DNA from: Labrys wisconsinensis
GTDB lineage: Bacteria; Pseudomonadota; Alphaproteobacteria; Rhizobiales; Labraceae
Direction of reading: 5' to 3'
Assembly (NCBI RefSeq): GCF_030814995.1
Contig: NZ_JAUSVX010000006.1
Coordinates: forward strand, 62,001-126,000
DNA: 64,000 nt
Positions 1,382 to 27,087 of the stretch are shown here, one piece after another. The translations under genes and the position numbers were made by a program. Each line of letters opens with the position of its first letter. The first letter of the stretch is position 1. Below the pieces are notes generated by a model that was given only the letters and a program-made list of their open reading frames with translations, ran no database searches and had not been told where the DNA came from.

Positions 1382-1414
1382 GGCTTTCTCCAGCGGGCAG
1401 TGCTTCCCCAGACG

Positions 1415-2011: not shown

Positions 2012-2015
2012 GGCG

Positions 2016-2177: not shown

Positions 2178-2178
2178 G

Positions 2179-3117: not shown

Positions 3118-3198
3118 GTCGTGGTCTCAACTCTGTCCGGCAGCACGTCCGAACGCCGTGGGCAGGGCGCTCGGAGATGCTGCATTCGCAAACTCGGC

Positions 3199-3247
3199 GG
3201 GAAGGCACGGGATCCCGTGCCTTCCCCGGAGGCGGTCCTTCCGGACC
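3199..3247. repeat. Perfect 28-bp palindrome plus second hairpin in the ctaD-ctaB spacer
   Basis: Positions 3199-3226 form an uninterrupted perfect palindrome centred on GGGATCCC with GGAAGGCAC arms. A second hairpin follows at 3234-3247 (GGTCC/GGACC). They occupy the 142-bp spacer between ctaD and ctaB, the largest gap inside the operon. There is no U-tract on the minus strand, so a classical terminator is unlikely. RNA processing, transcript stabilisation of ctaCD or a dispersed palindromic element are possible. Confidence 0.6.
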
Positions 3248-3259
3248 ACCGCAAGCGTC

Positions 3260-4885: not shown

Positions 4886-4905
4886 GATCGTGTCCTTCCA
4901 AGCCG

Positions 4906-5772: not shown

Positions 5773-6100
5773 TCGCCTTCACTCCGAATTCCCGCATGCC
5801 GCACTCCCGCCGCACGGCCTGTTCTTGATGTTGGCCGCGAGGAGCGGACAATGGTGCTGATTTCACGGTTTGGAATGTGTGTAAAGCTCAGAGCCTCTCA
5901 AAAACCATAATCCTCACCACACCGCAATGGCGCGGGCGGGTGAGGTCTGTGCGGCAATTGGGCGCGAAACCGCAGGCGGTCCGAGTCGCCCGCGCCGGGC
6001 GGTCCGGGGCGCTGAACTTGACACCGCGGGCCCCTCTGTTACGGGTCCGCCTTCCATCACACGGCGGGTGTTCGCGCGCCCGATTCGGCAAGGGGCGATC
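5773..6100. other. Divergent intergenic region between ctaC and the IalB-like gene
   Basis: This 328-bp gene-free region must hold the promoter of the cta operon (leftward) and of the IalB-like gene (rightward). The stretch around 5860-5925 is noticeably more AT-rich than its surroundings and is the likeliest promoter zone. I see no convincing operator palindrome or riboswitch. Confidence 0.5.
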
Positions 6101-6625
6101 GTGTCTGCAAAATCCTTGATCGGCATTGTGCGCTGGGCCGGCCTGCTCTGCGCCATGGCGGCGGCGCTGGCCGCGTCCGGCGGCGGCGCCCTGGCCCAGA
6201 GCACCCAGAAGGGCACCTATGGCGACTGGCAGGTGCGCTGCGATACCCCGCCGGGGGCGCAGAAGGAGCAGTGCGCCCTGGTGCAGAGCGTCACCGCCGA
6301 GGACCGGCCCAACGTGGCGCTGACCGTGCTGGTCCTGAAGACGGCCGACCAGAAGAGCCGGATCCTGCGTGTGCTGGCCCCGCTCGGCGTGCTCCTGCCC
6401 TCGGGCCTCGGCCTCAAGATCGATTCCACCGATGTCGGCCGCGCCGGCTTCGTGCGCTGCCTGCCGAACGGCTGCGTCGCCGAGGTGATGCTCGACGACA
6501 CGCTGATCGGCCAGTTGCGCACGGGCAAGACCGCCACCTTCATCATCTTCCAGACGCCGGAGGAAGGCATCGGCATCCCCCTCACCCTCACCGGCTTCGG
6601 CGACGGCTTCGACAAGCTGCCATAG
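6101..6625 (+). CDS. Invasion-associated locus B (IalB) family exported protein
   Basis: The 174-residue product carries an N-terminal signal sequence (about residues 1-33, ending GGGALAQS) and a compact domain beginning GDWQVRCD. Paired cysteines and the CLPNGCVAEV segment are typical of the IalB family (PF06776). Family members are periplasmic or outer-membrane proteins widespread in Hyphomicrobiales; only the Bartonella member is tied to erythrocyte invasion, so the name does not imply virulence here. I chose GTG at 6101 because it puts the signal peptide at the N-terminus behind AGGGG; an open frame extends to 5927. Confidence 0.82.
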   Translation: MSAKSLIGIVRWAGLLCAMAAALAASGGGALAQSTQKGTYGDWQVRCDTPPGAQKEQCALVQSVTAEDRPNVALTVLVLKTADQKSRILRVLAPLGVLLPSGLGLKIDSTDVGRAGFVRCLPNGCVAEVMLDDTLIGQLRTGKTATFIIFQTPEEGIGIPLTLTGFGDGFDKLP

Positions 6626-6690
6626 GACGCGCCATGCGCATTCTTGCTGCGCATAGGGTCTGCTGGTAGACTCCCTATCCGGAGATTGCC

Positions 6691-6921
6691 ATGACCACTG
6701 CGCGCAAGAAGGCTGTCAACGTGAGCCTGGATGCCGATTTGGTCGTGCAGGCGCGGGCCTATGGCATCGGCCTGTCCCAGACTCTTGAAGAGGCGTTGAG
6801 AGAGAAGGTGCGCCAGTCCCGTCTGGAGCAGTGGCAACGGGAGAACCGCGAGGCCTTCGAAGCCCAGAATGCCGAGCTTGCCGACCACGGTCTTTGGTCC
6901 GACGGCGCCCGCCTGTGGTGA
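6691..6921 (+). CDS. ccdA: CcdA-type antitoxin
   Basis: This 76-residue protein has an N-terminal ribbon-helix-helix-like half (NVSLDADLVVQARAYGI) and a C-terminal toxin-binding half, WQRENREAF...DHGLWSDGARLW. That half closely mirrors the RWKAENREG...GSFADENRDW segment of F-plasmid CcdA. It should neutralise the adjacent toxin and autorepress the operon. It overlaps the toxin start by GTGA, the usual coupled arrangement. Confidence 0.9.
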   Translation: MTTARKKAVNVSLDADLVVQARAYGIGLSQTLEEALREKVRQSRLEQWQRENREAFEAQNAELADHGLWSDGARLW

Positions 6922-7235
6922 GCTCGCCGCGTCGGTTCGACATCATCCGAAACGGATCCGCAACGGCCGACAGGCGCCCTTTCCTGATCGTGCTTCAGAG
7001 CGACGATCTCGGATCGATGGAGACACGCGTTGTCGCGCCGTTGGCACGGATTCCGCCGTTCAGGCCCATCCGGATCCTGCAGCCGGTGATCGAGATCGTC
7101 GGAGCAGATCATGCCTTGGTCGCCAACGAGATGGCCGCCGTGCCCCGGAAGATGCCGGGCCCGATCGTCTCGTCGGGGCGCCACTGCCGCTACGAGATTT
7201 TGCGGGCTATCGACCTGATCTTCACCGGCGTTTGA
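6918..7235 (+). CDS. ccdB: CcdB-type toxin with altered C-terminus
   Basis: This 105-residue protein starts with GTG at 6918, overlapping the ccdA stop. CcdB-like features are the FLIVLQSDDL strand, the VVAPLARI segment, the MAAVPRKMPG loop and the final helix EILRAIDLIFTGV, which aligns with the KNAINLMFWGI end of F-plasmid CcdB. The W99 equivalent is Thr here (FTGV instead of FWGI). In F CcdB the last three residues (W-G-I) are needed for gyrase poisoning, so toxicity or target may differ. A chromosomal ccd homologue, not a plasmid maintenance locus, is inferred. Confidence 0.88.
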   Translation: MSSPRRFDIIRNGSATADRRPFLIVLQSDDLGSMETRVVAPLARIPPFRPIRILQPVIEIVGADHALVANEMAAVPRKMPGPIVSSGRHCRYEILRAIDLIFTGV

Positions 7236-7245
7236 TTCCGCTGCC

Positions 7246-8889
7246 TCACGCCACCCTCGCCCGCGCAATGATCGGATCGAGCGCCAGGCCGGCCGGCAGG
7301 GCGCCGTAGCAGCCGCGCATGCCGCCGCCGATGCGGGCGGCGACGAAAGCCTCGCCGATCGGGGCCGGGGCATGGCGCAGCAGCAGCGAGGCCTGCAGCG
7401 CCAGCGCCATGTCCTCCACCAGCCGGCGCGCCGTCGCCTCGGCGCCGGCGAGATCGGCGAGGGCGGCATCGAGGCCGTCGAAGAAGCGGTCGAAGGCCGG
7501 CAGGGCGCCACGCGCCGCCTGTGCCTCCCCCCGCCAGGCCGTCAGCGCGCCGGGCTCGCGGCCGAGCGCCCGCAGCACGTCGAGGGCGTTGACGTTGCCC
7601 GAGCCTTCCCAGATGGCGTTGACCGGCGCCTCGCGGTAGAGCCGCGCCATCGGCGCCTCCTCGACATAGCCGTTGCCGCCGAGGCATTCCAGCGCCTCGT
7701 AGGCGTGGCCCGGCAGGCGCTTGGTCACCCAGAACTTGGCGAGCGCCGAGCCGATGCGCGCGAAGGCCCGCTCCGCCTCGTCGGCGCCGTCGAAGGCACG
7801 CGCCACCCGCATCACCAGCGCCAGCGCCGCCTCCGCCTCCAGGGCGAGGTCGGCCAGGACGGCGCGCATCGCCGGCTGGTCGATGAGCAGGCGTCCGAAG
7901 GCCGAACGATGCGCCGCGTGGTGCGCCGCCTGCACCACGCCCTGGCGCATCATCCCGGCCGAGACCACGGCGGCGTCGAGCCGGGTATGGCGCACCATCT
8001 CCATGATGGCGGCGATGCCGCGGCCCTCCTCGCCGATGCGCTGCGCCCAGGCGCGATCGTACTCGATCTCGGCCGAGGCGTTGGAGCGGTTGCCGAGCTT
8101 GTCCTTGAGCCGCTGCAGCAGGATGCCATTGCGCGTCCCGTCCGGCCGCCAGCGCGGCACGAGGAAGCAGGTGAGGCCGGCGCCCGTCTGCGCCAGCGTC
8201 AGGAAGGCGTCGGACATCGGCGCCGAGCAGAACCATTTATGGCCGGTCAGAGCATAGGAATCGCCCTCCAGCAGCACTGCCCGCGTGGTGTTGGCGCGCA
8301 CGTCCGAGCCGCCCTGCTTCTCCGTCATCGCCATGCCGATGGTGGCCGACCCCTTCGCGGCCACCGGGACGGCGCGCCCGTCATAGCCGCGCCCGAGCAC
8401 CAGCGGCACCAGCCCCTCGAGCGCCGGCGCCTGGCGCAGCGCCGGCACGCCGGCATAGGTCATGGTGATCGGGCAGCACACGCCCGCCTCGACCTGGGTC
8501 AGCATATATTCGAGCGCCGCATGCGCCACATGGGCGCCGGGGCGGGCGGCGGTCCAGGGCAGGGCGTGGATGCCGGCGCCGAGGCCGAGCGCCATCAGCG
8601 CGTGATAGGCGGGATGATACTCCACCTCGTCGAGGCGCCGGCCGTAGCGGTCGAAGCTCTTGAGCTGCGGGGGGAAGCGGTTGGCCGCCTCGCCGAGCGC
8701 GATCGTCTCCTCCCGGCCGAGCACGGCGCCGAAGGCGCTGGCCTCGGCCTCGGCCCAGCCGGCGCCCTCGCGCCGCAGCGCTTCCGTCAGGCCCGGATCG
8801 GTCTCGAACAGGTTGACGTCCACGAGCGGCGGCGGCTGGTTGGCCACCATGTGGGTCGGGAGCGCGGAGGTCGGGGCGCGGGCGGTCAT
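7246..8889 (-). CDS. AidB-like acyl-CoA dehydrogenase family protein
   Basis: This 547-residue flavoprotein is of the AidB branch. The N-terminus NQPPPLVDVNLFETD and REGAGWAEAEA are hallmark AidB sequences. The FAD-binding region has MAMTEKQGGSDVRANTTRA and the C-terminal part has ECLGGNGYVEE and a long extra helical domain. E. coli AidB is induced by alkylation and binds DNA and FAD; its enzymatic substrate is unclear. The gene is convergent with ccdAB and stands alone, so no regulation by Ada is evident from context. Confidence 0.93.
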   Translation of the reverse strand: MTARAPTSALPTHMVANQPPPLVDVNLFETDPGLTEALRREGAGWAEAEASAFGAVLGREETIALGEAANRFPPQLKSFDRYGRRLDEVEYHPAYHALMALGLGAGIHALPWTAARPGAHVAHAALEYMLTQVEAGVCCPITMTYAGVPALRQAPALEGLVPLVLGRGYDGRAVPVAAKGSATIGMAMTEKQGGSDVRANTTRAVLLEGDSYALTGHKWFCSAPMSDAFLTLAQTGAGLTCFLVPRWRPDGTRNGILLQRLKDKLGNRSNASAEIEYDRAWAQRIGEEGRGIAAIMEMVRHTRLDAAVVSAGMMRQGVVQAAHHAAHRSAFGRLLIDQPAMRAVLADLALEAEAALALVMRVARAFDGADEAERAFARIGSALAKFWVTKRLPGHAYEALECLGGNGYVEEAPMARLYREAPVNAIWEGSGNVNALDVLRALGREPGALTAWRGEAQAARGALPAFDRFFDGLDAALADLAGAEATARRLVEDMALALQASLLLRHAPAPIGEAFVAARIGGGMRGCYGALPAGLALDPIIARARVA

Positions 8890-9060
8890 GGCGGGCTCGC
8901 GGGTTGCTGGCGCCGGCCATTATGACACGGACGCGCCGAAAACCCTTGCCGCGCCGCGCAGCGGGCGGCGGCGTTGCGGTGGCGCGACGCCGCGGTGCAG
9001 ACTATATCGCGGTTCATCGCCTCCGTTCGGCCTCCCGCCCCTCCGTCCGACAGGAATTCC

Positions 9061-10905
9061 ATGCATCACGCCAGTGCCAGCTTCCTGCCGAGCCTGCTGC
9101 TCTTCCTCGGCGCGGCCGTGGTCGCCGTGCCGGTGTTCAAGCGCATCGGGCTCGGCGCGATCCTGGGCTATCTCGTCGCCGGCGTCGCCATCGGCCCGTC
9201 GGGCCTGCGGCTCTTCACCGACACCGACACGATCCTGCAGATCGCCGATCTCGGCATCGTGCTGCTGCTGTTCGTCATCGGCCTGGAGCTGCAGCTCAGC
9301 CGCCTGCTCGCCATGCGCCGCGACATTTTCGGTCTCGGCGCGCTGCAGCTCGGGCTCTGCGCTCTCGGCCTCGGCGCCGTGGCGGCGCTGCTCGGCCTCT
9401 CCGTGCTGGGCGCGGCGGTCGCCGGCATCGCCCTGGCGCTCTCGGCCACGGCCATCGCCCTGCAGGTGCTGAACGAGCGCGGCGAGCTGCAGGCGCCCTA
9501 CGGCCAGCGCAGCTTCGCCGTGCTCCTGTTCCAGGACATCTCGATCGTGCCGATCCTGGCGCTGGTGCCGCTGTTCGCGGTCGAGGTGGCGCATGACGAG
9601 GCCTCCGTCTCCGGGCTGGTCGACGCCGGCATGAAGGTGGGCGCCGTCGCGGTGGTGGTGCTGGTCGGGCGCTACCTGCTCAATCCGATGTTCCGCATTC
9701 TCGCCAACACCGGCGCGCGCGAGGTGATGACCGCCGCGGCGCTGCTCCTGGTGCTGGGCACCGCGCTGCTGATGCAGTTCGCCGGCATGTCCATGGCGCT
9801 CGGTGCCTTCCTCGCCGGCGTGCTGCTGGCCGAATCGAATTTCCGCCACGAGCTCGAGGCGGATATCGAGCCCTTCCGCGGCCTGCTGCTCGGCCTGTTC
9901 TTCATGGGTGTCGGCATGGCCATCGACGGGCCGCTGGTGCTCGCCCATTGGCCGCTGCTGGCCGCGCTGGCGATCGGCCTCGCCGTGGTCAAGTCGGCGC
10001 TGGTCGCCGGCCTGTTCAAGCTCACCGGCTCGCCCTGGCGCGATGCGTTCAGGGCCGGCGTGGTGCTGTCGCCGGCGGGCGAGTTCGCCTTCGTCCTGAT
10101 CCCGCTCGGTCGCGCCTCCGGCTTCCTCGAGGCCGAGCAGGCCGGCCTGCTCTCGGCCCTGGCGGCGACGACGATGCTCATCGGGCCGCTGGTCATGGTC
10201 GGCTCCGAGCGCCTGCTCAAGCGCTTCCGCCCGCCGGACCCGACCCGCGACGAGGACTTCTCCGACGCCCATGGCCGGGTGCTGATGATCGGCTTCGGCC
10301 GCTTCGGCCAGATCGTGGCGCAGATCATGCGCACCCAGGAGGTCGACGTCACCATCATCGACAACGACGTCGAGATGATCGATGTCGCGGCGCGCTTCGG
10401 CAGCAAGGTCTATTTCGGCGACGGCACCCGGCTCGACGTGCTGCGGGCCGCCGGCGCCGGGGAGGCGCGCATCATCTGCGTCATGATCGACGACCGGGCG
10501 GCGGCGGCGCGCATCGTCGAGCTGGTCAAGGCGGAATTCCCCCTGGCCAAGGTGCATGCCCGCGCCTATGACCGCCAGCACGCGCTGGCGCTCCTGGAGG
10601 CGGGGGTCGACTATTTCGTCCGCGAGACCTATGAGAGTGCCATGACCTTCGGGCGCCACCTCCTGGAGACGCTCGACGTGCCGGATGAGGAGGCCGAGGA
10701 GGTGATCGGCGACGTGCGCGAGCGCGACGCGGCCCGGCTCGCCGCCCAGATGCAGGGCGGCATCTATGCCGGCATGGATCTGATCAAGTCCCGCCGCGTG
10801 GTGCGGCCCGAGCCGCTCGAGGGCACCGGCCAGATCGGCGTCACCCTCAATGCGGATGCGATCCGCGCCGTGGAAGCGGCCAAGGAGGAGGAGGAGACGG
10901 GCTGA
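9061..10905 (+). CDS. CPA2-family monovalent cation:proton antiporter with TrkA-N domain (KefB/KefC type)
   Basis: The 614-residue protein has an N-terminal Na+/H+ exchanger domain of about twelve helices (residues 5-385) and a cytosolic Rossmann RCK/TrkA-N domain starting at GFGRFGQIV (about residue 408). An acidic, probably coiled tail ends EEEETG. KefB/C proteins are glutathione-gated K+ efflux systems protecting against electrophiles. Gating ligands cannot be read from the sequence, and no KefF/G ancillary gene is adjacent. The start at 9061 follows AGGAA; a longer upstream frame has no membrane sequence. Confidence 0.9.
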   Translation: MHHASASFLPSLLLFLGAAVVAVPVFKRIGLGAILGYLVAGVAIGPSGLRLFTDTDTILQIADLGIVLLLFVIGLELQLSRLLAMRRDIFGLGALQLGLCALGLGAVAALLGLSVLGAAVAGIALALSATAIALQVLNERGELQAPYGQRSFAVLLFQDISIVPILALVPLFAVEVAHDEASVSGLVDAGMKVGAVAVVVLVGRYLLNPMFRILANTGAREVMTAAALLLVLGTALLMQFAGMSMALGAFLAGVLLAESNFRHELEADIEPFRGLLLGLFFMGVGMAIDGPLVLAHWPLLAALAIGLAVVKSALVAGLFKLTGSPWRDAFRAGVVLSPAGEFAFVLIPLGRASGFLEAEQAGLLSALAATTMLIGPLVMVGSERLLKRFRPPDPTRDEDFSDAHGRVLMIGFGRFGQIVAQIMRTQEVDVTIIDNDVEMIDVAARFGSKVYFGDGTRLDVLRAAGAGEARIICVMIDDRAAAARIVELVKAEFPLAKVHARAYDRQHALALLEAGVDYFVRETYESAMTFGRHLLETLDVPDEEAEEVIGDVRERDAARLAAQMQGGIYAGMDLIKSRRVVRPEPLEGTGQIGVTLNADAIRAVEAAKEEEETG

Positions 10906-10964
10906 GGATCGACCCGGCGGGGGCACCCGCCTTCCGCCGGACCTCGCGACCGTCCACACGCCCG

Positions 10965-12341
10965 ATGCCGGACAGCGCCACCACCCTCGACGCCGCCGCG
11001 CCGCCCGAGCGCGCGGCGCCCAAGTTCGTCCACGGCTCGACGGCCCGGCACGTCGTGGTCATGACCGCGACCGCCTCGCTCGGCCTGATGGCGATCTTCG
11101 TCGTCGACCTGCTCAACCTGTTCTACATCGCCCGGCTCGGCGACACCGTGCTGACCGCGGCGGTCGGCTATGCCTCGACCATCCTGTTCGTCACCACCTC
11201 GATCTGCATCGGCCTGATGATCGCCACCGGCGCGCTGTGCTCGCGCGCGCTCGGGGCCGGCGACCGGCCGCTGGCGCGGCGCCTCGCCGCCTCCTCGATC
11301 TTCTGGATGTTCGCGGTCACCATGGCGGTCGCCCTGGTGTCGCTGCCGCTGATCCGGCCGATGCTCGCCGCGCTCGGCGCCATGGGGCGCACGCTCGATG
11401 TGGCCGCGACCTATCTCACCATCGCCACGCCGACCGTGCCGGTCATGGGCCTCGGCATGGCCTTCGCCGGAGTGCTGCGCTCGGTGGGCGATGCCCGGCG
11501 CGCCATGTATGTGACGCTGTCGGGGGCCGTGGTCGCGGCCGTGCTCGATCCGCTCCTGATCCTGTTCCTCGGCTGGGGCGTGCCGGGCGCCGCCGTCGTG
11601 CTGGTGTTCTCGCGCCTGGTGGTGGCCTATGTCGGCTATCGCGGGGCGGTGCGCCTGCACGACCTCGTGGCCCGGCCGACGCTCGCCGCGGCCCGTGCCG
11701 ATGCGCCGGCGATCGCCGCGATCGCCGGGCCGGCGGTGCTGGCCAACCTCGCCACGCCCGTCGCCGCCGGCTACATGACGGCGGTGCTGTCGCCGTTCGG
11801 CGATGCCGCCATCGCCGCCAATGCGGTGATGGGGCGGCTGGTGCCGGTATGCTTCGGCGCGGTCTTCGCGCTCTCGGGCGCGGTCGGCCCGATCCTCGGC
11901 CAGAATCTCGGCGCCGGGCGGCTCGACCGGGTGCGCCGCACGCTCACGGATTCCTTCCTGCTCGTCACCGCCTATGTCGTCGCCGTCTGGGTGGTGCTGG
12001 CCCTGGCGCGCCACGGCGTGGTGGCGGTGTTCGGCATCACCGACCGCGGCGCCGCGGCGCTGGTCGAGTTCTTCTGCCTGTTCGTCGCAGGCTCCTGGGT
12101 GTTCCACGGCCTGCTCTTCGTCGCCAATGCCGCCTTCAACAATCTCGGCTTTCCCCTCACCTCCACCGGCTTCAACTGGGGCAAGGCGACGCTCGGCACC
12201 GTGCCCTTCGCCATGGCCGGCGCCGCCTGGTGGGGCGCGGAGGGAGCGCTGGCCGGGCAGGGCGTCGGCGCCGTGCTGTTCGGCCTCGCCGCCGTCCGGG
12301 CCGCCTATCGGGCGGTCGGCCGCCTCGCAGTCGGCGATTGA
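10965..12341 (+). CDS. MATE family efflux transporter
   Basis: The 458-residue protein shows about twelve hydrophobic helices in two related halves, with MATE features such as LFYIARLGD near the first helix, GVLRSVGDARRAM, and GPILGQNLGAGRLDRVRR between the halves. Family members export cationic compounds using H+ or Na+ gradients; the substrate is unknown. The gene lies 59 bp after the antiporter in the same direction and may be cotranscribed with it. A dispersed repeat follows immediately. Confidence 0.92.
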   Translation: MPDSATTLDAAAPPERAAPKFVHGSTARHVVVMTATASLGLMAIFVVDLLNLFYIARLGDTVLTAAVGYASTILFVTTSICIGLMIATGALCSRALGAGDRPLARRLAASSIFWMFAVTMAVALVSLPLIRPMLAALGAMGRTLDVAATYLTIATPTVPVMGLGMAFAGVLRSVGDARRAMYVTLSGAVVAAVLDPLLILFLGWGVPGAAVVLVFSRLVVAYVGYRGAVRLHDLVARPTLAAARADAPAIAAIAGPAVLANLATPVAAGYMTAVLSPFGDAAIAANAVMGRLVPVCFGAVFALSGAVGPILGQNLGAGRLDRVRRTLTDSFLLVTAYVVAVWVVLALARHGVVAVFGITDRGAAALVEFFCLFVAGSWVFHGLLFVANAAFNNLGFPLTSTGFNWGKATLGTVPFAMAGAAWWGAEGALAGQGVGAVLFGLAAVRAAYRAVGRLAVGD

Positions 12342-15565: not shown

Positions 15566-16714
15566 TCAGCCGCCCGGCAAGGCCCGCGCGGCCAGCTCGG
15601 CCCAGCCGTGATAGCCGACATAGAGGCCGACGGCGATGATCAGGATGCCGGAGACATAGGGGGCCCGCCGAGCCAGGCCGCCGAACCATGACCAGCGCCT
15701 GGTCGCCTGGCGCACGCTCAGGGCTGCCGCGGCGCCGACGGTGACGAGGGTGATGGCGAGCCCGATCGAGAAGCAGAGCACCAGGACGAAGCCGAGGCTG
15801 AACTGCTTGATCTGCAGGCAGAGCAGCAGCACCGTGATCGCGGCCGGGCAGGGGATCAGGCCGCCGGTCAGGCCGAAGATGACGATCTGCCAGGTGGTCA
15901 CGCTGCGATCGGCGAACCTGCGACGGATGTCGTCGGCGTGCGCCAGCTCGTGGGCGTCCCGATAGCCGTCCGTGGCGACCTCCAGCCCGCGCGACGCCTC
16001 GTGCATGGGGCCGTGGCCCTCGACGAAGGTCAGGTCGTAGTCATGGCTATGGCCGCCGTGGCCGAGGCTGACGCGCGCCGTGAATGCGTGCGGCTCGGGG
16101 ATCTCGTCGATCGATTCGAGATAGGCGCCCTTGTCGGCGAAGGCGAAGGATTGCCGTGCGCCGTCCGGCCGCTCGGTGACGATCGCGACATCCCCCGCGG
16201 CCCAGGTGTGGCCGCGCTCGGTGCGGATGCGCCAGCGCGGCGGCACCCCGTCCTCGAACACCTCGACCGCGATCACGCCGTGTCCGGTGTCGATGCGGCG
16301 GATCGCCTCGCCGTGGCTGTGGCCGTGGCGGGCATGATCGTGATCGCCTGCCGCCGCCCTGGCCCGTCGCTGGTCCTCCCGGGTGCGCCACAGCATCCAG
16401 AGCGCGATGCCGATGATGATCGCGGCCGAGGCGAGCTGGAAATAGGGCTCGAACGTCTCGGCGTTCACGCCCTGCCAGAGATAGAGGCCGCCGAGCGCGA
16501 TGGCCCAGACGACGAGGGTGTGCGACGCCGTGGCGGCGAGGCCCAGCAGCACGGCCTGCGTCACCGTTCCGCGGATTGCGACGATGAAGGCGGCCATCAT
16601 CGTCTTCGAATGCCCCGGCTCCAGCCCGTGCAGGGCGCCGAGCAGGATCGCGCTCGGGACGAACAGCCACGCATGGGCGGAGCTCTGCTGCAGCAGATCG
16701 GCAAAGGACGGCAT
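15566..16714 (-). CDS. Nickel/cobalt efflux transporter (NicO/RcnA family)
   Basis: The 382-residue inner-membrane protein has six or more helices. The NicO motif GALHGLEPGHSKT comes near residue 27, and a long His-rich cytoplasmic insert (DHDHARHGHSHGE and GHGGHSHDYD, about residues 135-270) suits Ni/Co binding. The second motif LTGGLIPCPAAITVLLLC follows. It lies just downstream of the CsoR-like repressor in the same operon, so metal-inducible export is likely. Confidence 0.92.
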   Translation of the reverse strand: MPSFADLLQQSSAHAWLFVPSAILLGALHGLEPGHSKTMMAAFIVAIRGTVTQAVLLGLAATASHTLVVWAIALGGLYLWQGVNAETFEPYFQLASAAIIIGIALWMLWRTREDQRRARAAAGDHDHARHGHSHGEAIRRIDTGHGVIAVEVFEDGVPPRWRIRTERGHTWAAGDVAIVTERPDGARQSFAFADKGAYLESIDEIPEPHAFTARVSLGHGGHSHDYDLTFVEGHGPMHEASRGLEVATDGYRDAHELAHADDIRRRFADRSVTTWQIVIFGLTGGLIPCPAAITVLLLCLQIKQFSLGFVLVLCFSIGLAITLVTVGAAAALSVRQATRRWSWFGGLARRAPYVSGILIIAVGLYVGYHGWAELAARALPGG

Positions 16715-16722
16715 CGGGCAGC

Positions 16723-17004
16723 TCAGAGGTACTTGGTGATTTCCTTGAACTCGTCGATCGACCGGCGCTGGTCGCGCGCCAGCGGCCCGACGACGTCCTC
16801 GAGGCAATGGTCGAGATGATCCTGGATCAGGGTCTTCTTGGCCTGGGAGATCGCCTTCTCGACCGCATGGAGCTGCTGGGCGATGTCCAGGCAGGGCCGC
16901 CCCGTCTCGATCATCTCGATGATCCCCTTGAGATGCCCTTCGGCCCGCTTCAGCCGCTTGGCGATCTCGGGATGGGTCGCGTGGACGTGAGGATGTTTCT
17001 CCAT
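16723..17004 (-). CDS. CsoR/RcnR/InrS-family metal-sensing repressor
   Basis: This 93-residue all-helical repressor carries the CsoR-type ligand triad C38, H63 and C67 with canonical spacing (25 and 4), plus an N-terminal His cluster HPHVHATH. RcnR has His at the last triad position, while InrS (a Ni sensor) and CsoR (a Cu(I) sensor) have Cys. The linked NicO exporter favours an InrS-like Ni/Co role. It probably represses its own operon through the palindrome just upstream. Confidence 0.9.
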   Translation of the reverse strand: MEKHPHVHATHPEIAKRLKRAEGHLKGIIEMIETGRPCLDIAQQLHAVEKAISQAKKTLIQDHLDHCLEDVVGPLARDQRRSIDEFKEITKYL

Positions 17005-17071: not shown

Positions 17072-17614
17072 TCAGGCCGCCGTCCCGTCGTCGAAGCGAT
17101 ATTCGAGGTGGATGTCCCGCGGCTCGAGGGCGAACAGGTCCGGATCGGGCGTGGCCGCGAGCGTGCAGCCGCGGCGGCGATAGAAGTCGACGGTCGCCTG
17201 GCTCTCGGTCGCGGAGACATAGAGCCCGGCGGCGCCCCGCGCGCGGGCTGCGCGCAGGCACAGCCCGAACAGCTCGACCCCGAGGCCGCGCCCGCGGCAG
17301 GCGCTGCCGACATGCAGGAACATCAGCTGCAGGAGATCGCGGGAGGAGCCGCGCCCCAGCGTGTCCAGCACGGCGGCGCCGGCCAGCGCCGCTCCGTCGA
17401 AGGCGCCGAAGAAGGCTCCGCCCCGATCGTGGCAGGCCAGGAGCAGGGGCGTGTAGGCCTCGGGCTCGCCCGGCGGCCAGCCCCGCACGTCGTGGTGCTC
17501 GGGCGTGAGCACCAGGCGGCCCTCGCGCAGGACATAGATCGCATCGATGATCTCGGAACGGTCGATGGCCCAGAGCGTCCCGACCTCGTCGCGTCGCAGG
17601 AGGCGGATCTGCAT
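17072..17614 (-). CDS. GNAT family N-acetyltransferase
   Basis: This 180-residue GNAT-fold enzyme has the acetyl-CoA loop motif CRGRGLGVELF (Q/RxxGxG type) near residue 108 and a C-terminal SATESQATVDFYRRRGC strand-helix unit. The substrate is unknown. It is transcribed toward the rcn-like operon but separated from it, and is probably monocistronic. Confidence 0.88.
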   Translation of the reverse strand: MQIRLLRRDEVGTLWAIDRSEIIDAIYVLREGRLVLTPEHHDVRGWPPGEPEAYTPLLLACHDRGGAFFGAFDGAALAGAAVLDTLGRGSSRDLLQLMFLHVGSACRGRGLGVELFGLCLRAARARGAAGLYVSATESQATVDFYRRRGCTLAATPDPDLFALEPRDIHLEYRFDDGTAA

Positions 17615-17706: not shown

Positions 17707-18309
17707 TCACGCCATCCGGTCGAGCGCCTGCTGGGCCTCCGGCCCGGGCGCGTAGGGGCGCTCCTGCGGCAGCAGGGCGCGGGCCTCCTCGAGCCGCCCG
17801 GCCGAGACATGGGCATGGACGGCATGCGCGAGCGGCGTGACGTCGGTGATCGCCCGGATCCAGCCGTCGACATAGCGACCGACCGATTCGCCGCCGAGAC
17901 CGATCTGGATCGCCCGATGGTCGAGCGCCTGCAGATGCAGGTCGCGCTCGGGGTCCCACTGGATCCGCACCGGCGAGCGCTCCTTCATGCGCTCCCATTC
18001 GTCGTGCGTCATCGACGCCGGCGGCCTGCTCGGGCAGCTGTTCGCCAGCGCCCAGGCGAAACCCTCCCGGCTGATGTCGATGGCGAGGATGCGGTGCTGG
18101 TTCTTGTCCTTGAAGCCCCACCCGGCCCGATACATCATCCACAGGAAGGATGGCTTGATCCAGGTCATGCGCGTCCGGCTGAACGGCGGCGAGACGAAGG
18201 TGCCGCGCGCCAGCGCCGTGTCGGCGATCTCGTCGCGATAGGCCTGGTAGACCCGGATGGTGTGGGCGTCGTGGACGGCGCGGATCTGCCGTTGCGGGAT
18301 CTGTCTCAT
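17707..18309 (-). CDS. DUF4291 protein in the NrtR-like module
   Basis: This 200-residue protein matches DUF4291 throughout: an N-terminal RQIRAVHDAHTIRVYQAY, a central MTWIKPSFLWMMYRAGWG, LAIDISREGFAWAL, and QIGLGGESVGRYVDGWI near residue 135. The biochemical function of DUF4291 is unknown. It starts 44 bp after the Nudix-like regulator on the same strand, so the two form an operon. The regulatory link suggests nucleotide or ADP-ribose-related metabolism, which is inference. ATG at 18309 was chosen because homology begins there. Confidence 0.85.
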   Translation of the reverse strand: MRQIPQRQIRAVHDAHTIRVYQAYRDEIADTALARGTFVSPPFSRTRMTWIKPSFLWMMYRAGWGFKDKNQHRILAIDISREGFAWALANSCPSRPPASMTHDEWERMKERSPVRIQWDPERDLHLQALDHRAIQIGLGGESVGRYVDGWIRAITDVTPLAHAVHAHVSAGRLEEARALLPQERPYAPGPEAQQALDRMA

Positions 18310-18353
18310 GTCGGTCTCGGTTCCTGGCGGCGGAGCGTGGGCCCGGCGCGCGC

Positions 18354-19013
18354 TCACACCATGCGGTTGAATTCCTGCAGCGCCTCCTGCCGCAGCCGGT
18401 AGAGCCGGGCCGGCCGGTCGCTCGCCCGGCTGAAGGCGCCGGCGACCGGCTCGATCACCTGCAATTCGTCGATCTTGCGGCGGAAGGCGCTGTCGTTGAG
18501 GGCCATGCCGAGCACCACCTCGTAGATCTCCCGGAGCTGGGGCAGGGTGAAGTGCTCGGGCAGCAGGAAGGCCGGCAGCGAGGACCAGGCGCCCTTGTTG
18601 CGCAGCCGGCGCACGCCGGCGGCGACGATCCGCTCGTGATCGAAGGGCAGAGGCGGAATGGCCTCGACCGGGACGATCTCGCTGCCGCGCTCCAGCACCG
18701 GCGCCAGCCGGGCCTCCGGCACCAGCGCGTAATAGGCCACCGAGGCCGACCAGCCGCGCGGGTCGCGCCCGGGCCCCGAGAAGGTCGCGAGCTGCTCCAG
18801 GAACAGGCCGGCGAGGCCGGCCTTGTCCCGCAGCACCCGCCCCGCCGTCGCCAGCGTGTCCGCATCCTCGTCGACATGGACATAGCCGCCGATCAGGGCC
18901 GGCCGCCCGGCGAAGGGCTCGCGGTCGCGGCGCTGCAGGGCCACGCAGAGGTCGCTGCCGCGAATGGTGAACAGCACGACGTCGACGGTGAGGATCGGGC
19001 GGATCTCGTCCAT
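18354..19013 (-). CDS. NrtR-like regulator: degenerate Nudix domain plus winged helix
   Basis: This 219-residue protein has an N-terminal Nudix fold (to about residue 135) and a C-terminal winged-helix domain (FTLPQLREIYEVVLG...AFRRKIDEL). The Nudix box region (residues 42-68) keeps glycines but replaces catalytic acidic residues: the REUxEE segment reads RVLRDK. That degeneracy is typical of NrtR repressors, which sense ADP-ribose or related nucleotides rather than hydrolyse them. It sits divergently from the vWA/PurA-like genes, the usual position for a regulator. Confidence 0.85.
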   Translation of the reverse strand: MDEIRPILTVDVVLFTIRGSDLCVALQRRDREPFAGRPALIGGYVHVDEDADTLATAGRVLRDKAGLAGLFLEQLATFSGPGRDPRGWSASVAYYALVPEARLAPVLERGSEIVPVEAIPPLPFDHERIVAAGVRRLRNKGAWSSLPAFLLPEHFTLPQLREIYEVVLGMALNDSAFRRKIDELQVIEPVAGAFSRASDRPARLYRLRQEALQEFNRMV

Positions 19014-19030
19014 GCCCCGACCTTAGAGTG

Positions 19031-19070
19031 TCGATGTGCAAAAAGCAACTTGCAATATGCAAATTACAAT
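19031..19070. promoter_or_regulatory. Candidate operator of the NrtR-like regulator
   Basis: The 94-bp divergent spacer contains an AT-rich array: TGCAAAAAGCA, then the palindrome TTGCA-ATA-TGCAA (19050-19062), then TGCAAATTACAA. TGCAA units recur in both orientations at roughly helical spacing, unlike the surrounding GC-rich DNA. Location between regulator and target operon suggests the binding site. Confidence 0.55.
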
Positions 19071-19107
19071 GATAGAGAAGACCATCGATGCAGCACAGGA
19101 GGATGCC

Positions 19108-20013
19108 ATGGGACATGGACGCTGGGACGCCAATTCATGGGCGGGCTATGCCGCCCGCCATGCCGGCCGCGCCGCGCACGAGATCTTCAACGCCAGGCAG
19201 ATGAACCCCGCCTTCGATCCCGCCCGGATCGTCCTGCGCGAATCCTGCGACAGCGCCGAGAATCCGGCCTCGACCGCCATCATCCTGGCGAGCGACGTCA
19301 CCGGCTCGATGGGGCGGATCGCCGAGGTGATGATCCGCTCGGGCCTCGACACCACCATGCGTGAGATCTACGCCCGCAAGCCGGTCTCCGATCCGCATGT
19401 GATGGTGATGGCGGTGGGCGACGCCGAATGCGACCGCGCGCCGCTGCAGGCCACCCAGTTCGAGGCCGACATCCGCCTGGCGGAGCAGCTCGCCGGCCTG
19501 TGGATCGAGAGCGGCGGCGGCGGCAATGGCGGCGAGAGCTACCATCTGCCCTGGTACTTCGCCGCCACGCGCACCCGTACCGACTGCTTCGCCAGGCGCG
19601 GGCGCAAGGGCTATCTCTTCACCATCGGCGACGAGCCGATCCTCGGCGGCATCACGCCGCCCAATCTGCGGCGCGTGTTCGGCGACGAGGTGCGGCGGGG
19701 CCTGAGCTCGATGGAGCTGCTGGCGATGGCGCAGCAGAGCTACGAGGTGTTCCACATCCTCCTGACGAATGTCGGCTACGCGACGTCGCGCCTGGACGAG
19801 GTGTTGGCGACCTGGCAGCCCCTGCTCGGCGAGCGGGTGATCCGCTGCGACGACCACGAGCGCATCGCCGAGGTGATCGTCTCGGCCATCCAGGTGGCCG
19901 AGGGCGCCGACTGGACCTCCGTGGCGCAGTCCTGGTCGGGGACGACCGCCGCCACCGTCGCCAGGGCCGTCCAGGCCCTGAAGGCGCCGCCACTCGCCTG
20001 GTGGGACAGGTAG
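19108..20013 (+). CDS. Hypothetical protein with a vWA-like MIDAS motif
   Basis: This 301-residue protein has no signal peptide or membrane segment. Residues 56-68 (AIILASDVTGSMG) form a MIDAS-type DxTGS motif after a hydrophobic strand, characteristic of von Willebrand A folds. Later segments include GGGGNGGESYHLPWYF (about 132-147), a Gly-rich loop, and YLFTIGDEPILGG (about 167-179). Such soluble vWA proteins often assemble with ATPases, but no MoxR-type ATPase is adjacent. The start follows CAGGAGG. Ten bases separate it from the PurA-like gene. I do not recognise a named family. Confidence 0.75.
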   Translation: MGHGRWDANSWAGYAARHAGRAAHEIFNARQMNPAFDPARIVLRESCDSAENPASTAIILASDVTGSMGRIAEVMIRSGLDTTMREIYARKPVSDPHVMVMAVGDAECDRAPLQATQFEADIRLAEQLAGLWIESGGGGNGGESYHLPWYFAATRTRTDCFARRGRKGYLFTIGDEPILGGITPPNLRRVFGDEVRRGLSSMELLAMAQQSYEVFHILLTNVGYATSRLDEVLATWQPLLGERVIRCDDHERIAEVIVSAIQVAEGADWTSVAQSWSGTTAATVARAVQALKAPPLAWWDR

Positions 20014-20023
20014 GCGCTTGGCC

Positions 20024-21202
20024 ATGCCCATCACCGCAGAGGTCGTGATCGGTGCCGGCTACGGCGACGAAGGCAAGGGCCTCCTCACCGATGCCCTGGC
20101 CGCCCCCCTGGGCGCCGACGCCGCCGTCATCCGCTTCAACGGCGGCGCCCAGGCCGGCCACACCGTGCAGGCGCCGGACGGGCGGCGCCACGTGTTCCAT
20201 CACGTCGGCAGCGGCGCCCTGGCCGGGGCGCGCAGCTTCCTGTCGCGCTTCTTCGTCGCCAACCCGATCCTGCTGCGCGAGGAGCTGGCCGTGCTGGCGG
20301 GGCTCGGCGTTCGCCCGCTCATGGCGATCGATCCGGCGGCCCCGGTGACGCTGCCCTTCGACATGATGCTGAACCAGATGGCCGAGCGGGCGCGGGGCGA
20401 GCGCCGCCACGGCTCCTGTGGCCTCGGCTTCGGCGAGACGCTCGAGCGCAGCCGGCACGAGGCCCTGCGGGTGGTCGCGGCCGATCTCGCCCGCGCCGGC
20501 CTGCGCGAGCGCCTCGAGCATGTCAGGCGCGCCTGGCTGCCGCAGCGCCTCGCCGCCCTCGGCCTGGAGCCGGCGGCCGAGGATGCGGCCCTGCTGGCGG
20601 ACGAGCGCATCCTCGAGCGCTGGCTGGAGGATGCGGCGATCTTCGCCGATGCCGTCCCGGTCATGACCATCGACGCCGTGCCCGGCCGCATCGTCTTCGA
20701 GGGGGCGCAGGGCCTGATGCTCGACCAGGACCGCGGCGCCTTTCCCTTCGTCACCCGTTCCAACACCGGGCTGCGCAACGTCGTCGCCCTGGCGCGGGAG
20801 GCCGGCATCGACGGTCTCGACGTCACCTATGTCACCCGCGCCTATGTCACCCGCCACGGCGCCGGCCCGCTCGCCCACGAATTGTCCGGCGCGCCCTGGC
20901 CGGATGCGACCAACCTGCCCAATCCCTGGCAGGGCACGCTGCGCTACGGCACGCTCGACCTCGACGTGCTGCACCGGGCCGTCGCCGCCGATCTCGGCGA
21001 TGCCGGCGGCCTCGCCGTCACGCCGCGCCTTGCGGTGACCTGCCTCGACCAGGTCGGCCCGGCCGTCGACTTCGTCGAAGGCGGCGTGCGGAGCTCCGCG
21101 GCGCCGGAGGCGCTGGCGCGCCGCCTCGCCGCGCGCCTCGGCGCCGCCTCCGTGCTCGCCGGCCGCGGCCCGACGCGGGCGGACCTCGCCCCGGTCGGCT
21201 GA
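20024..21202 (+). CDS. Divergent adenylosuccinate synthetase-like protein (PurA paralogue)
   Basis: This 392-residue protein (E. coli PurA has 432) keeps the P-loop GYGDEGKG (13-19, catalytic Asp15), GGAQAGHT (40-47, catalytic His46), [10 protein letters not shown] (225-234) and a C-terminal GPTRADL. Three substrate regions differ. TTGRGIGP is SCGLGFGE (131-138), the Arg-rich aspartate loop TTGRRRRTG is PWQGTLRYG (301-309), and guanine-recognising TKLD is TCLD (339-342). It therefore probably ligates a different acceptor or amine, or uses another nucleotide. The ATG at 20024 was preferred over TTG at 20018. It is co-operonic with the vWA gene. Confidence 0.88.
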
Positions 21203-24892: not shown

Positions 24893-26263
24893 TCAATAGG
24901 CGTGCTCGTCGAACACCTTGTCGATGTCGCCGTTCCAGGCCCTCTGGTATTTTTCCAGGAGCGCGTCGGCTGACGTCACGCCGCTCGCCACGATCGCGTC
25001 GAGCCCGTCGAGGAAGAACGCCTCGGTCCGCCCCTGCCAGTCGAGGACGTTGCGCGCCTCCAGCCCGGCCCGGGCGATCTTCAGCACCTCGCGCGCCACC
25101 TCGCGCACGGTGCCGGTGCGGAACGGCGTCCTCAGGGCCTGGCGCGAGACGCTGTCGCGCAGCGCCTGGCGTTCGCCCTCGGTCCAGTCCTTGACCAGGT
25201 CCCAGGCGGCGTCGAGCGCGGTCTGGTCGTAGAGCAGGCCGACCCAGAAGGCCGAGAGCGCCGCCAGGCGGCCGGTCGGCCCGGCATCGGCGCCGCGCAT
25301 TTCCAGGTAGCGCTTCAGCCGCACCTCGGGAAACAGCGTGCCGAGATGGTTGGCCCAGTCGGAGATCGTGGCCCGCTCGCCGGGAAGCTGCTCCAGCCGG
25401 CCCGCCAGCAGGTCGCGGAACGAGGCCCCGGCCACGTCGTGATAGGTGTCGCCGCGCTTGACGAAATAGAGCGGCACGTCCAGCGCCCAGTCGACATAGC
25501 GCTCGAAGCCCATGCCGTCCTCGAAGGCGAAGGGCAGCATGCCGGTGCGGTCGAGATCGGTGTGCCGCCACACTTCCGAGCGCATGGAGAGGAAGCCGTT
25601 CGGCCGCCGGTGCTGGAACGGCGAATTGGCGAAGAGTGCCGTCGCCAGCGGCTGCAGCGCCAGCGAGACGCGCAGCTTCTTGACCATGTCCGCCTCGGAG
25701 GCGAAGTCGAGGTTCACCTGGACGGTGGAGGTGCGGTACATCATGTCGAGACCCATGACGCCGACCTTGGGCATGTAGCGCGTCATGATCTCGTAGCGGC
25801 GCTTGGGCATGACCGGCGTCTGCGCCCGCGTCCACACCGGCGACATGCCCAGCGCCAGGAAGCGGATGCCGAGCGGCTCGCCGATCTCGTGCACCTGCGC
25901 CAGATGGGCGTGGATCTCCGAGCAGGTTTCGTGGATCGAGACGAGCGGCGCGCCGGAGAGCTCGAACTGGCCGCCCGGCTCCAGCGAGATGGCGCCGCCG
26001 CCGGTGACGTCGAGCATGCCGATGATGTTCTCGCCTTCCATGATCGGCTCCCAGCCGAGCATGTGGCGCAGGCCCTCCAGCAGGGCGCGGATGCCGTCCG
26101 GCCCCTCATAGGGCACGGGCGCGTGGCCGACGGCGCGGAATGGGAACTTCTCGTGCTCGGTGCCGATGCGGAAGGCGGCTTTCGGCTTCACGCCCTTCTC
26201 GATCCAGGCGACGAGGTCGTCGCGCGAGGAGACGGGCGCTGCATCGGTGACGTCACGAGCCAT
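24893..26263 (-). CDS. gshA: Glutamate-cysteine ligase (alphaproteobacterial/plant type)
   Basis: This 456-residue enzyme has the standard length of the plant-like GCS2 family. Signature stretches are FRIGTEHEKFPF (about 31-42), GGGAISLEPGGQFELSGAP (about 88-106), TCSEIHAHL, and MYRTSTVQVNLDF. It makes gamma-glutamylcysteine, the first step of glutathione synthesis, in the cytoplasm. gshB is not in the window. ATG at 26263 follows AGGACC; another Met eleven codons upstream is possible. Confidence 0.95.
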   Translation of the reverse strand: MARDVTDAAPVSSRDDLVAWIEKGVKPKAAFRIGTEHEKFPFRAVGHAPVPYEGPDGIRALLEGLRHMLGWEPIMEGENIIGMLDVTGGGAISLEPGGQFELSGAPLVSIHETCSEIHAHLAQVHEIGEPLGIRFLALGMSPVWTRAQTPVMPKRRYEIMTRYMPKVGVMGLDMMYRTSTVQVNLDFASEADMVKKLRVSLALQPLATALFANSPFQHRRPNGFLSMRSEVWRHTDLDRTGMLPFAFEDGMGFERYVDWALDVPLYFVKRGDTYHDVAGASFRDLLAGRLEQLPGERATISDWANHLGTLFPEVRLKRYLEMRGADAGPTGRLAALSAFWVGLLYDQTALDAAWDLVKDWTEGERQALRDSVSRQALRTPFRTGTVREVAREVLKIARAGLEARNVLDWQGRTEAFFLDGLDAIVASGVTSADALLEKYQRAWNGDIDKVFDEHAY

Positions 26264-26359
26264 GGAGACAAGGTCCTGCAGAGAGGCGCGGACCATAGAC
26301 ACAGGGGCGCCGCAATTACAATCGGGCGGTGCGCAACCCGCCTCCGCGCCGGACCGCGT

Positions 26360-26388
26360 GGAGCGGCGGACCATGGGCCCGCCGCTCC
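26360..26388 (-). terminator. Hairpin downstream of rlpA copy 1
   Basis: The arms GGAGCGGCGG and CCGCCGCTCC enclose a nine-base loop just after the rlpA stop codon. There is no U-tract, so it may be an RNA-stability structure or a weak terminator separating rlpA from gshA. Confidence 0.4.
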
Positions 26389-26394
26389 GGCCGT

Positions 26395-26760
26395 TCAGGT
26401 CAGGCGCTCGATCTTCACCTTGGCGGTGCCGCTGCGCACGAAGTCCAGGGCGCGCGCGGCGCCGTAGGACAGGTCGAGCATGCGGCCGCGGACGAAGGGG
26501 CCGCGGTCCGACACCCGCACGACGACCGAGCGGCCGTTGCGCAGGTTGGTGACGGAAAGCTTGGTGCCGAAGGGCAGGCTGCGATGGGCTGCCGTCATGG
26601 CGTTCATGTTGAACCGCGTGCCATCTGCGCAGCGGCGGCCGTGAAACTCTCTGCCGTAATAGGATGCCATGCCGACAGAGCCGGCGAATGCCGGCACCGC
26701 TGAGGCCGCAACAGTGATGGCAACGGCACAAAGCTTCACAGTCGTCGTTAGTGACGTCAT
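26395..26760 (-). CDS. RlpA-like double-psi beta-barrel protein, copy 1
   Basis: The 121-residue product has a signal peptide (about 1-26, ending PAFA) and a double-psi beta-barrel domain: GMASYYGREFHGRRCADGTRF, AAHRSLPFGTKLSVTNLRNG, and VRVSDRGPFVRGRMLDLSYGAARAL. The SDRGPF Asp and PFG segment match RlpA. E. coli RlpA is a septal lytic transglycosylase, but this protein lacks a SPOR domain, so septal targeting cannot be inferred. Confidence 0.9.
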   Translation of the reverse strand: MTSLTTTVKLCAVAITVAASAVPAFAGSVGMASYYGREFHGRRCADGTRFNMNAMTAAHRSLPFGTKLSVTNLRNGRSVVVRVSDRGPFVRGRMLDLSYGAARALDFVRSGTAKVKIERLT

Positions 26761-27087
26761 TCAGTCGATCTCTCGATTGTTGGAGGGATGTCGTCTGATC
26801 GTCGCCAAATGTGGTGATAAAATGAAATTAATTTAGAAAAATACCGAAAATAGACACTGATTTAATGATTTTTGAAGGATTTATGTGAATATATTCACAA
26901 TATTATGGTGCATGATATCCGTATAAGCACGCGAAAGACGGTCAACGCCAACTGGTTGACTTATCAATCGCAATGATATTTGCTGAATTTGCAGACGCAG
27001 GTGAAATATTTCTGGATTTATACGAAGGCGCGGTCTGAGCATGAGTCGCCCGGCGTCGGGCTGCTCCGCGCCGCCGCGGCGGGCTCG
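26761..27087. other. AT-rich spacer between the two rlpA copies
   Basis: The 327-bp spacer contains a stretch from about 26805 to 27030 that is strikingly AT-rich compared with the ~70% GC surroundings. It contains the perfect 14-bp palindrome GTGAATATATTCAC (26885-26898) and poly-A/T tracts. No ORF was found. It must carry the promoter of rlpA copy 1 and may be bound by nucleoid or regulatory proteins; foreign origin is an alternative. Confidence 0.6.

Follow-up and report, generated by a model that had tools for sequence, protein, structure and literature searches.

Characterised NrtR regulators of nicotinamide adenine dinucleotide (NAD) metabolism release their operator when an NAD breakdown product, for example ADP-ribose, accumulates. 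ADP-ribosyltransferases (ARTs) carry catalytic triads of the R-S-E, H-Y-E or R-Y-E type, in which the first position is Arg or His. In adenylosuccinate synthetase (PurA), residue R303 contacts aspartate and the 2'-OH of inosine monophosphate (IMP), and the contact to the ribose 2'-OH is displaced in PurZ (PMC8342488), one of the 2-amino-adenylosuccinate synthetases of Z-DNA phages. In phage PurZ, Ser replaces the catalytic Asp (PMC12884076). The same report sorted 767 PurA homologues and described a PurA group of 251 members and a PurZ group of 151; its grouping section does not discuss the homologues beyond these two groups (PMC12884076). We analyzed a stretch of 64,000 nucleotides of Labrys wisconsinensis (contig NZ_JAUSVX010000006.1, GCF_030814995.1, positions 62,001-126,000), further referred to as the window. 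It encodes an NrtR-like regulator, a DUF4291 protein, a vWA-like protein and a PurA-like enzyme. The conserved core of this locus is the pair formed by the vWA-like protein and the PurA-like enzyme. This pair is widespread as a module and frequently has an NrtR-type switch; DUF4291 and a J-domain/pseudokinase protein are its two optional partners.

Conservation of the vWA-like and PurA-like pair

A first-pass annotation of this DNA had placed two head-to-head gene pairs around a spacer of 94 base pairs (bp; 19014..19107), and both its coordinates and its gene calls were correct. On the + strand, the gene of the vWA-like protein (301 residues, 19108..20013) is followed after 10 bases by that of the PurA-like enzyme (392 residues counted from the ATG, 20024..21202, with TTG at 20018 as an alternative start). 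On the - strand, the spacer is bordered by the regulator gene (219 residues, 18354..19013), with the DUF4291 gene (200 residues, 17707..18309) behind it.

The vWA-like protein has an intact motif of the metal ion-dependent adhesion site (MIDAS) type, DVTGS (D63-x-T65-x-S67), whose D, T and S were conserved at 99-100% in 165 aligned sequences. No match was obtained in Pfam (E 0.001) or NCBIfam, and among PDB profiles there was only a weak one (E 0.017). The protein matched phrog_2971, a family of unknown function (E 3.7e-44). The vWA call therefore rests on the motif, which fits the DxSxS/DxTxS pattern, with no vWA profile match behind it.

To survey bacteria, we scanned one genome per species with an alignment of the vWA-like proteins of the window and of phages and obtained at least 550 relatives. 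The bacterial counts given below rest on the best 80 of them; as they stand closest to the query, layouts like that of the window are possibly over-represented. Among viruses, 252 IMG/VR contigs encoded a relative of the vWA-like protein, and the counts rest on 80 of these. The PurA-like gene was located downstream of the vWA gene, on the same strand and within 300 bases, in 79/80 bacterial loci (largest gap 235). The sole exception was L058, a stretch that stops 50 bases past the vWA frame. In viruses, the PurA-like gene stood downstream on the same strand in 76/80 loci, 53 times within 300 bases and otherwise at up to 2,549. One further viral locus (L137) was cut by the contig end, with no PurA-like gene visible. 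Given this pairing, we rejected the possibility that the two genes are chance neighbours. Records of isolated phages gave 206 matches to the vWA-like protein, mostly in Mycobacterium phages, and 223 to the PurA-like enzyme, some of which are canonical PurA. The two genes were adjacent in the four phages that we inspected (Vibrio, Rhizobium, Mycobacterium and gut metagenome).

The regulator was a frequent companion of the pair in bacteria (54/80 loci) and accompanied it in 5/80 viral loci. In an even draw across the phylum, the module gene was present in 6/398 genomes including the own one, and three more matches were weak. Four of the other five loci had NrtR divergent from the vWA and PurA-like genes, and one had the order kinase-like gene, vWA, PurA-like. 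Within the genus, only the own genome among five has the gene. The window's layout without a kinase-like gene, NrtR (-), vWA (+) and PurA-like (+), was observed in 20 of a total of 84 loci, 80 from bacteria and 4 from phages; several of the 20 were from Rhizobium.

The first-pass annotation had treated the four genes of the window as one pathway. All four families do recur together, in 4/80 bacterial loci outside the window (Dyella L019; Lachnospiraceae L060, L061 and L065). A single fixed four-gene pathway is not what we found, as DUF4291 is missing from the remaining 76 and a commoner partner is a gene of approximately 350 codons located upstream of the vWA gene, within 256 bases (51/80 bacterial loci; also 36/80 viral loci). 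The protein has an N-terminal J-domain, with HPD in the first 90 residues in 77/86 sequences; three bacterial members were scanned with the DnaJ profile and scored below its cut-off. In the kinase-like C-terminal part, the residue that we take to be the catalytic-loop Asp, by our own assignment, is Asp in only 13/86 sequences, which makes most copies probable pseudokinases. The copy of mycobacteriophage Shrimp matched Pkinase (E 1.5e-9). This gene is absent from the module in the window. In the own genome there was no full-length match to it, and three partial matches did not extend far, if at all, beyond the J-domain part of the profile.

Some loci showed further variation. On the megaplasmid of Methylorubrum extorquens AM1 (L290, NC_012811, 4942-6923) the PurA-like gene adjoins a shorter vWA frame of 251 codons, which may be truncated, and the fetched stretch gave no NrtR match. 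Upstream of the vWA gene, 8/80 viral loci (L109, L127, L140, L141, L144, L164, L165 and L166) and, as judged by eye, the gut phage L007 encode a small protein whose tail is rich in Met and Gly (L140 5261-5977; L007 3483-4091). The L140 copy had no Pfam match. Three clusters of open reading frames (1, 4 and 5) were disregarded because they shadow conserved genes located on other frames.

Active site of the PurA-like enzyme

The PurA-like enzyme matched Pfam Adenylsucc_synt (PF00709, E 1.1e-44), above the broad Pfam cut-off, and phrog_1211 (E 2.1e-66). Its scores against the curated NCBIfam models were far lower than the cut-offs: 136.7 bits vs 402 for PurA model PRK01117, 115.8 vs 395.55 for PurA model TIGR00184 and 48.6 vs 300 for PurZ model NF038379. 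The AlphaFold2 (AF2) model had a mean predicted local distance difference test (pLDDT) score of 95.2. Its fold matched E. coli PurA (1cg3) with a template modelling (TM) score of 0.79 and S-2L PurZ with only 0.60. We built a tree of 34 sequences (29 module proteins, four PurA and S-2L PurZ). A long branch leads to a single group (support 100/99) of all 29 module proteins, which excludes the four PurA and S-2L PurZ; the placement of PurZ and the order inside the clade are uncertain, because the program flagged long branches, among them PurZ and L006. As far as these sequences tell, the clade is neither PurA nor PurZ.

We counted the residues at active-site positions in 157 module proteins; E. 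coli numbering was transferred by offset via the canonical PurA of the own genome. The positions of Asp13, Lys16, His41, Gln224 and Thr239 were kept at 99-100%, Asp13 and His41 at 99% each. Asn38 is replaced by Gln in 97% of the proteins and Val273 by His in 100%. The aspartate-loop motif TGRxRR was found in 0/157. Thr, Ser, Ala or Lys predominate at the R303 column; at the R305 column Leu is found in 110/157, and one Arg is retained at the R306 column in 154/157. Because the loop is shorter by 1 residue in the 157-row alignment and by 4 in the 34-row alignment, the matching of these columns is uncertain, and the retained Arg could occupy the place of R303 or R305. Further, K331, the lysine of TKLD, is Cys or His in 154/157, T129 is Cys in 132/157 and the region of R143 is variable.

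The first-pass annotation had suggested an adenylosuccinate-like ligation step; such a step with aspartate is not borne out by these counts. Plain adenylosuccinate synthesis is unlikely because all 157 proteins have lost the aspartate-loop motif. The retained residues point to an enzyme that can still activate a 6-oxopurine nucleotide, which may be other than IMP, and the lost ones to an enzyme that probably does not employ free aspartate in the manner of PurA. At another place in the own genome there is a gene for canonical PurA. Public phage annotation (e.g. NC_070967 gp019) calls the PurA-like family "2-aminooxy adenylosuccinate synthetase", a name that the conserved residues do not support.

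The regulator, its candidate operator and the DUF4291 protein

The regulator matched the NrtR winged helix of Pfam (NrtR_WHD, PF21906, E 1.9e-18). There was no NUDIX profile match in Pfam at E 0.001, and we therefore regard its Nudix domain as degenerate. The closest solved structures by sequence were 3gz5/3gz6, deposited as a MutT/nudix family protein (near full-length, E 5.2e-31), which we take to be Shewanella NrtR; AraR was matched as well. The description of this gene as a degenerate-Nudix, NrtR-like regulator thus agrees with our results.

The spacer is AT-rich, as had been noted: it has 46.8% guanine plus cytosine (GC) vs 69.8% for the window, and 0.84% of 94-bp windows are equally AT-rich. 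It holds AGCAACTTGCAATATGCAAAT at 19044-19064, a TTGCAA-type operator-like site, within the longer site AGCAACTTGCAATATGCAAATTACAA (19044..19069, + strand). We looked for the first 21 bases of the site in the divergent spacers of relatives, with 200 base shuffles per spacer, and a spacer passed when its match was reached by at most 2 shuffles. A match was found in 21/41 spacers, the best one identical at 20/21 positions (Rhizobium L045). The 24-base pattern CAACTTGCAANNTGCANNTTRCAA, with up to 3 mismatches allowed, occurs once in the 8.93-Mb genome, at the local site. As the site is single, the regulator looks local and dedicated. A second protein with an NrtR winged helix is encoded in the own genome. 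The proposal that an NrtR-type protein controls the linked genes is thus consistent with the regulator and with the conserved divergent site, while its ligand is taken from knowledge of the family.

The DUF4291 protein matched Pfam PF14124 (E 5.6e-72, 241.8 bits vs cut-off 27). Its AF2 model (pLDDT 91.4) was compared with the PDB by Foldseek. Two matches were below E 0.001, both to 7rt7 (chain I/A, E 2.4e-4 and 2.7e-4, Foldseek probability 1.00), with a TM score of approximately 0.70 on target length and 0.51 on query length; no other chain was significant. The RhsP2 toxin domain, described as modifying 2'-OH groups of RNA, forms chain A of 7rt7 (PMC12340436). The viral fold library gave no match to the model at E 0.001. 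By its matches to 7rt7, DUF4291 is predicted to be a protein of ART fold. In seven DUF4291 sequences Y21, Q22, Y24, Y60 and E183 are invariant. A comparison of the profiles of KptA and DUF4291 showed no similarity. We found no paper on DUF4291 in the literature searched.

DUF4291 is rare. It was detected in 6/299 genomes drawn from the phylum and in 4/385 drawn from the class, three of these above the cut-off. It nevertheless lies beside the module in three lineages and in three gene orders: that of the window, NrtR, DUF4291, kinase-like gene, vWA and PurA-like in the three Lachnospiraceae, and NrtR/kinase-like gene, vWA, PurA-like, DUF4291 and ADP-ribosylglycohydrolase in Dyella. Ten module genomes were searched whole and three had DUF4291; two of these had been picked for adjacency, and in the third (Caulobacter) the gene is on another contig. 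DUF4291 is a recurrent, optional accessory of the module.

The draws from phylum and class contained seven other DUF4291 genes above the cut-off, two of them (L180, L181) close to contig ends. Two of the seven (L182, L183) lie by NrtR and NADAR, L182 also by ADP-ribosylglycohydrolase. The L183 cluster (670-11219, genome G011, gammaproteobacterial as judged by eye) comprises genes of NrtR, PRPP synthetase, NAMPT, NADAR, KptA, DUF4291, RtcB, a release-factor-like protein (presumably PrfH), an RNA ligase and an HD/AAA_33 protein, together with a further gene at 3103-3726. It joins genes of RNA repair and NAD salvage in one cluster. Among viral DUF4291 loci, contig L176 has the order DUF4291, NADAR, ADP-ribosylglycohydrolase. 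No searched neighbour family was detected in L174, L175, L177 and L178, and in L178 even DUF4291 was below the pass mark.

Several features surround the module in the window. A GNAT acetyltransferase gene (17072-17614) lies on the same strand, 92 bp downstream of DUF4291, and could share its transcript. A gene of a metal-sensitive repressor (PF02583, 16723-17004) adjoins one of a His-rich protein, membrane-type as judged by eye, and the two genes (15566-17004) are perhaps a metal-efflux pair. GC content falls to approximately 61% at 26000-26999, against 70% in the window. We also compared the insertion site with four congeners. The flanking genes had no close counterpart there (best 48% over part of a chemotaxis gene; at most 39% over part of the gene for the acetyltransferase), and hence no empty site could be demonstrated in the genus.

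Proposed function and comparison with known systems

We tentatively propose that the locus is a locally controlled, NAD/ADP-ribose-responsive module of nucleotide modification or repair, a reading that we consider plausible and somewhat short of probable. It starts from what was observed directly, namely gene order, conservation of the genes and of the operator-like site, active-site changes and predicted folds; the ligand, substrate, product and physiological trigger named below are presumed ones. The NrtR-like protein would bind a single operator in the spacer, thereby repressing transcription in both directions, and would let go of it once ADP-ribose or another product of NAD breakdown accumulates. 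Rightward derepression would yield the vWA-like MIDAS protein and the PurA-fold enzyme, which their conserved pairing suggests act together. In the enzyme, the PurA residues for activation of O6 of a 6-oxopurine nucleotide are kept, and the loop motif for binding free aspartate and part of the IMP contacts are lost; the enzyme would probably act on a different nucleotide or attach a different nucleophile. The vWA-like protein, elsewhere often with the J-domain/pseudokinase protein, may be a scaffold or adaptor. Leftward derepression would yield DUF4291, the predicted ART-fold protein and here an optional accessory, which in some genomes adjoins enzymes that remove or process ADP-ribose. From the function suggested in the first-pass annotation, in stress or nucleotide modification, we thus retain a likely link to nucleotides or ADP-ribose and drop both aspartate-type ligation and the fixed four-gene pathway.

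Several observations weigh against this proposal. The operator-like site did not pass in 20/41 spacers, which come from gammaproteobacteria, Bacillota and also alphaproteobacteria. More than 300 bases separate the vWA and PurA-like genes in 23/76 viral loci. Three viral loci (L130, L156 and L159) have no PurA-like gene despite enough room, and a Rhodovulum plasmid locus (L292, NZ_CP020385, 3876-6798) has NrtR, the kinase-like gene and vWA with no PurA-like match in a stretch of 10.3 kb. The similarity of DUF4291 to RhsP2 is moderate, given the TM score on query length, and comes without sequence support; an invariant Gln (YQAY) lies near the expected Arg/His of ARTs, and catalytic competence of DUF4291 is putative. 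DUF4291 is absent from most module loci, as given above, and 5/7 of its other sampled genes (L180, L181, L184, L195 and L196) have no searched NAD-linked family nearby. We searched within 6 kb of vWA genes for nine families (NAMPT, NADAR, RNA ligase, TROVE, PRPP synthetase, ADP-ribosylglycohydrolase, KptA, RtcB and PrfH). The control was 80 loci around anaerobic ribonucleotide reductase, found with an alignment, as a single protein gave 7 loci. In favour of the proposal, one of the families was present in 15/80 viral loci vs 2/80 control loci (Fisher p 7e-4). The comparison is not fair and the p value too favourable, because the families and some seeds were partly chosen after they had been sighted near vWA and related phages were counted as independent. 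Singly, only NAMPT stands out in the viral loci (7 vs 0 in the control), and the 80 bacterial loci contained just one ADP-ribosylglycohydrolase.

Other explanations were weighed against the same evidence. The PurA-like enzyme might be a spare adenylosuccinate synthetase, a divergent paralogue in ordinary purine metabolism or purine salvage. The PF00709 match, the PurA fold, the catalytic Asp and His and the Arg retained near the loop speak for it; we judge it improbable, given the loss of TGRxRR in every protein, the changes at R303, R305, V273 and N38, the score of 136.7 bits, the canonical copy elsewhere in the genome and the near-constant pairing with vWA. That the enzyme supplies a modified precursor for DNA, in the way PurZ serves 2-aminoadenine genomes, would suit its distribution in phages and its weak match to the PurZ model (48.6 bits), and the contact of R303 to the ribose 2'-OH is lost here and displaced in PurZ too (PMC8342488). 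We regard this as very improbable and rejected identity with PurZ, since the catalytic Asp is kept where phage PurZ has Ser (PMC12884076), the score is far below the cut-off and the clade excludes S-2L PurZ; moreover, many bacteria carry chromosomal copies with an NrtR regulator.

The locus could also be an anti-phage or conflict system, by abortive infection or of the toxin-antitoxin type, in which DUF4291 is a toxin-like ART and the other proteins are sensor or effector. The patchy spread in genus and phylum, the plasmid-borne copies and the resemblance of DUF4291 to an RNA-targeting toxin fold fit such a role. It is nevertheless unlikely: none of the four proteins matched PADLOC at E 0.1, which led us to reject a catalogued defence system, the core is carried by many phages, the regulator is of a metabolite-responsive type and DUF4291 is usually absent. 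A doubtful but more serious candidate is that DUF4291 lies beside the module by chance or through loose linkage, and that the sole functional unit consists of NrtR, the optional J-domain/pseudokinase protein, vWA and the PurA-like enzyme. The presence of DUF4291 in only 4/80 loci and the five other genes of seven without a searched partner agree with this. Opposed to it is that so rare a family stands beside the module in three lineages and three gene orders, in Dyella accompanied by ADP-ribosylglycohydrolase.

Beyond the proposed NAD/ADP-ribose-responsive module, it is possible, though we offer it with reserve, that the vWA and PurA-like pair with its optional J-domain/pseudokinase protein is an undescribed enzyme system common to bacteria and large phages. 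The PurA-fold enzyme would activate the O6 of a purine nucleotide and couple it to a group other than aspartate, perhaps on a larger molecule held by the vWA-like protein. The product might be a purine conjugate or a repaired ADP-ribose-related lesion, under control of an ADP-ribose-sensing NrtR and sometimes with the ART-fold DUF4291. The first-pass annotation knew of no characterised pathway of this composition, and we found no description of one in the literature searched, mostly without subscription papers; earlier comparative-genomics work could exist. The same searches gave no paper joining NrtR with adenylosuccinate synthetase, or adenylosuccinate synthetase with vWA, phage and kinase. 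Aravind and colleagues reportedly worked on NAD-utilising and RNA-repair operons.

The module is larger than the first-pass annotation saw, as its core pair is shared by large phages and numerous bacteria, with occurrences in at least 550 genome stretches, 252 viral contigs and more than 200 phage records, mostly of Mycobacterium phages. Its core enzyme is annotated as adenylosuccinate synthetase and probably does not make adenylosuccinate, and a known product would correct a widespread annotation. Such a product could reveal new chemistry of purine nucleotides in phage-host metabolism and tie NAD/ADP-ribose sensing to it.

Among known systems, RhsP2 and other ART folds resemble DUF4291 in predicted fold, and some DUF4291 neighbourhoods contain NADAR, ADP-ribosylglycohydrolase and KptA. 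The R-Y-E triad described for RhsP2 (PMC12340436) is not evident in DUF4291, there is no sequence similarity and nothing at DUF4291 points to secretion or Rhs proteins. The regulator shares with NrtR regulators of NAD metabolism the degenerate Nudix domain, the winged helix and the divergent operator-like site. It differs in its score (146.5 vs the NCBIfam NtrR equivalog cut-off of 400), in the single site of the whole genome and in that no NAD biosynthesis gene stands at the predicted operator, as none of the four module genes is NAD biosynthetic. Like PurZ and PurZ0, the PurA-like enzyme is PurA-derived and phage-borne, with an altered ribose/aspartate contact; unlike them, with Ser or Gly at the catalytic Asp, it keeps this Asp in 99% of sequences, and S-2L PurZ falls outside its clade. 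With PurA it shares the fold, the P-loop, catalytic Asp13 and His41 and the GAQG and T239 regions. It differs from PurA in the absent TGRxRR, in His at V273, Gln at N38 and Cys/His at the TKLD lysine, and it forms a separate clade whose genes usually adjoin a vWA gene.

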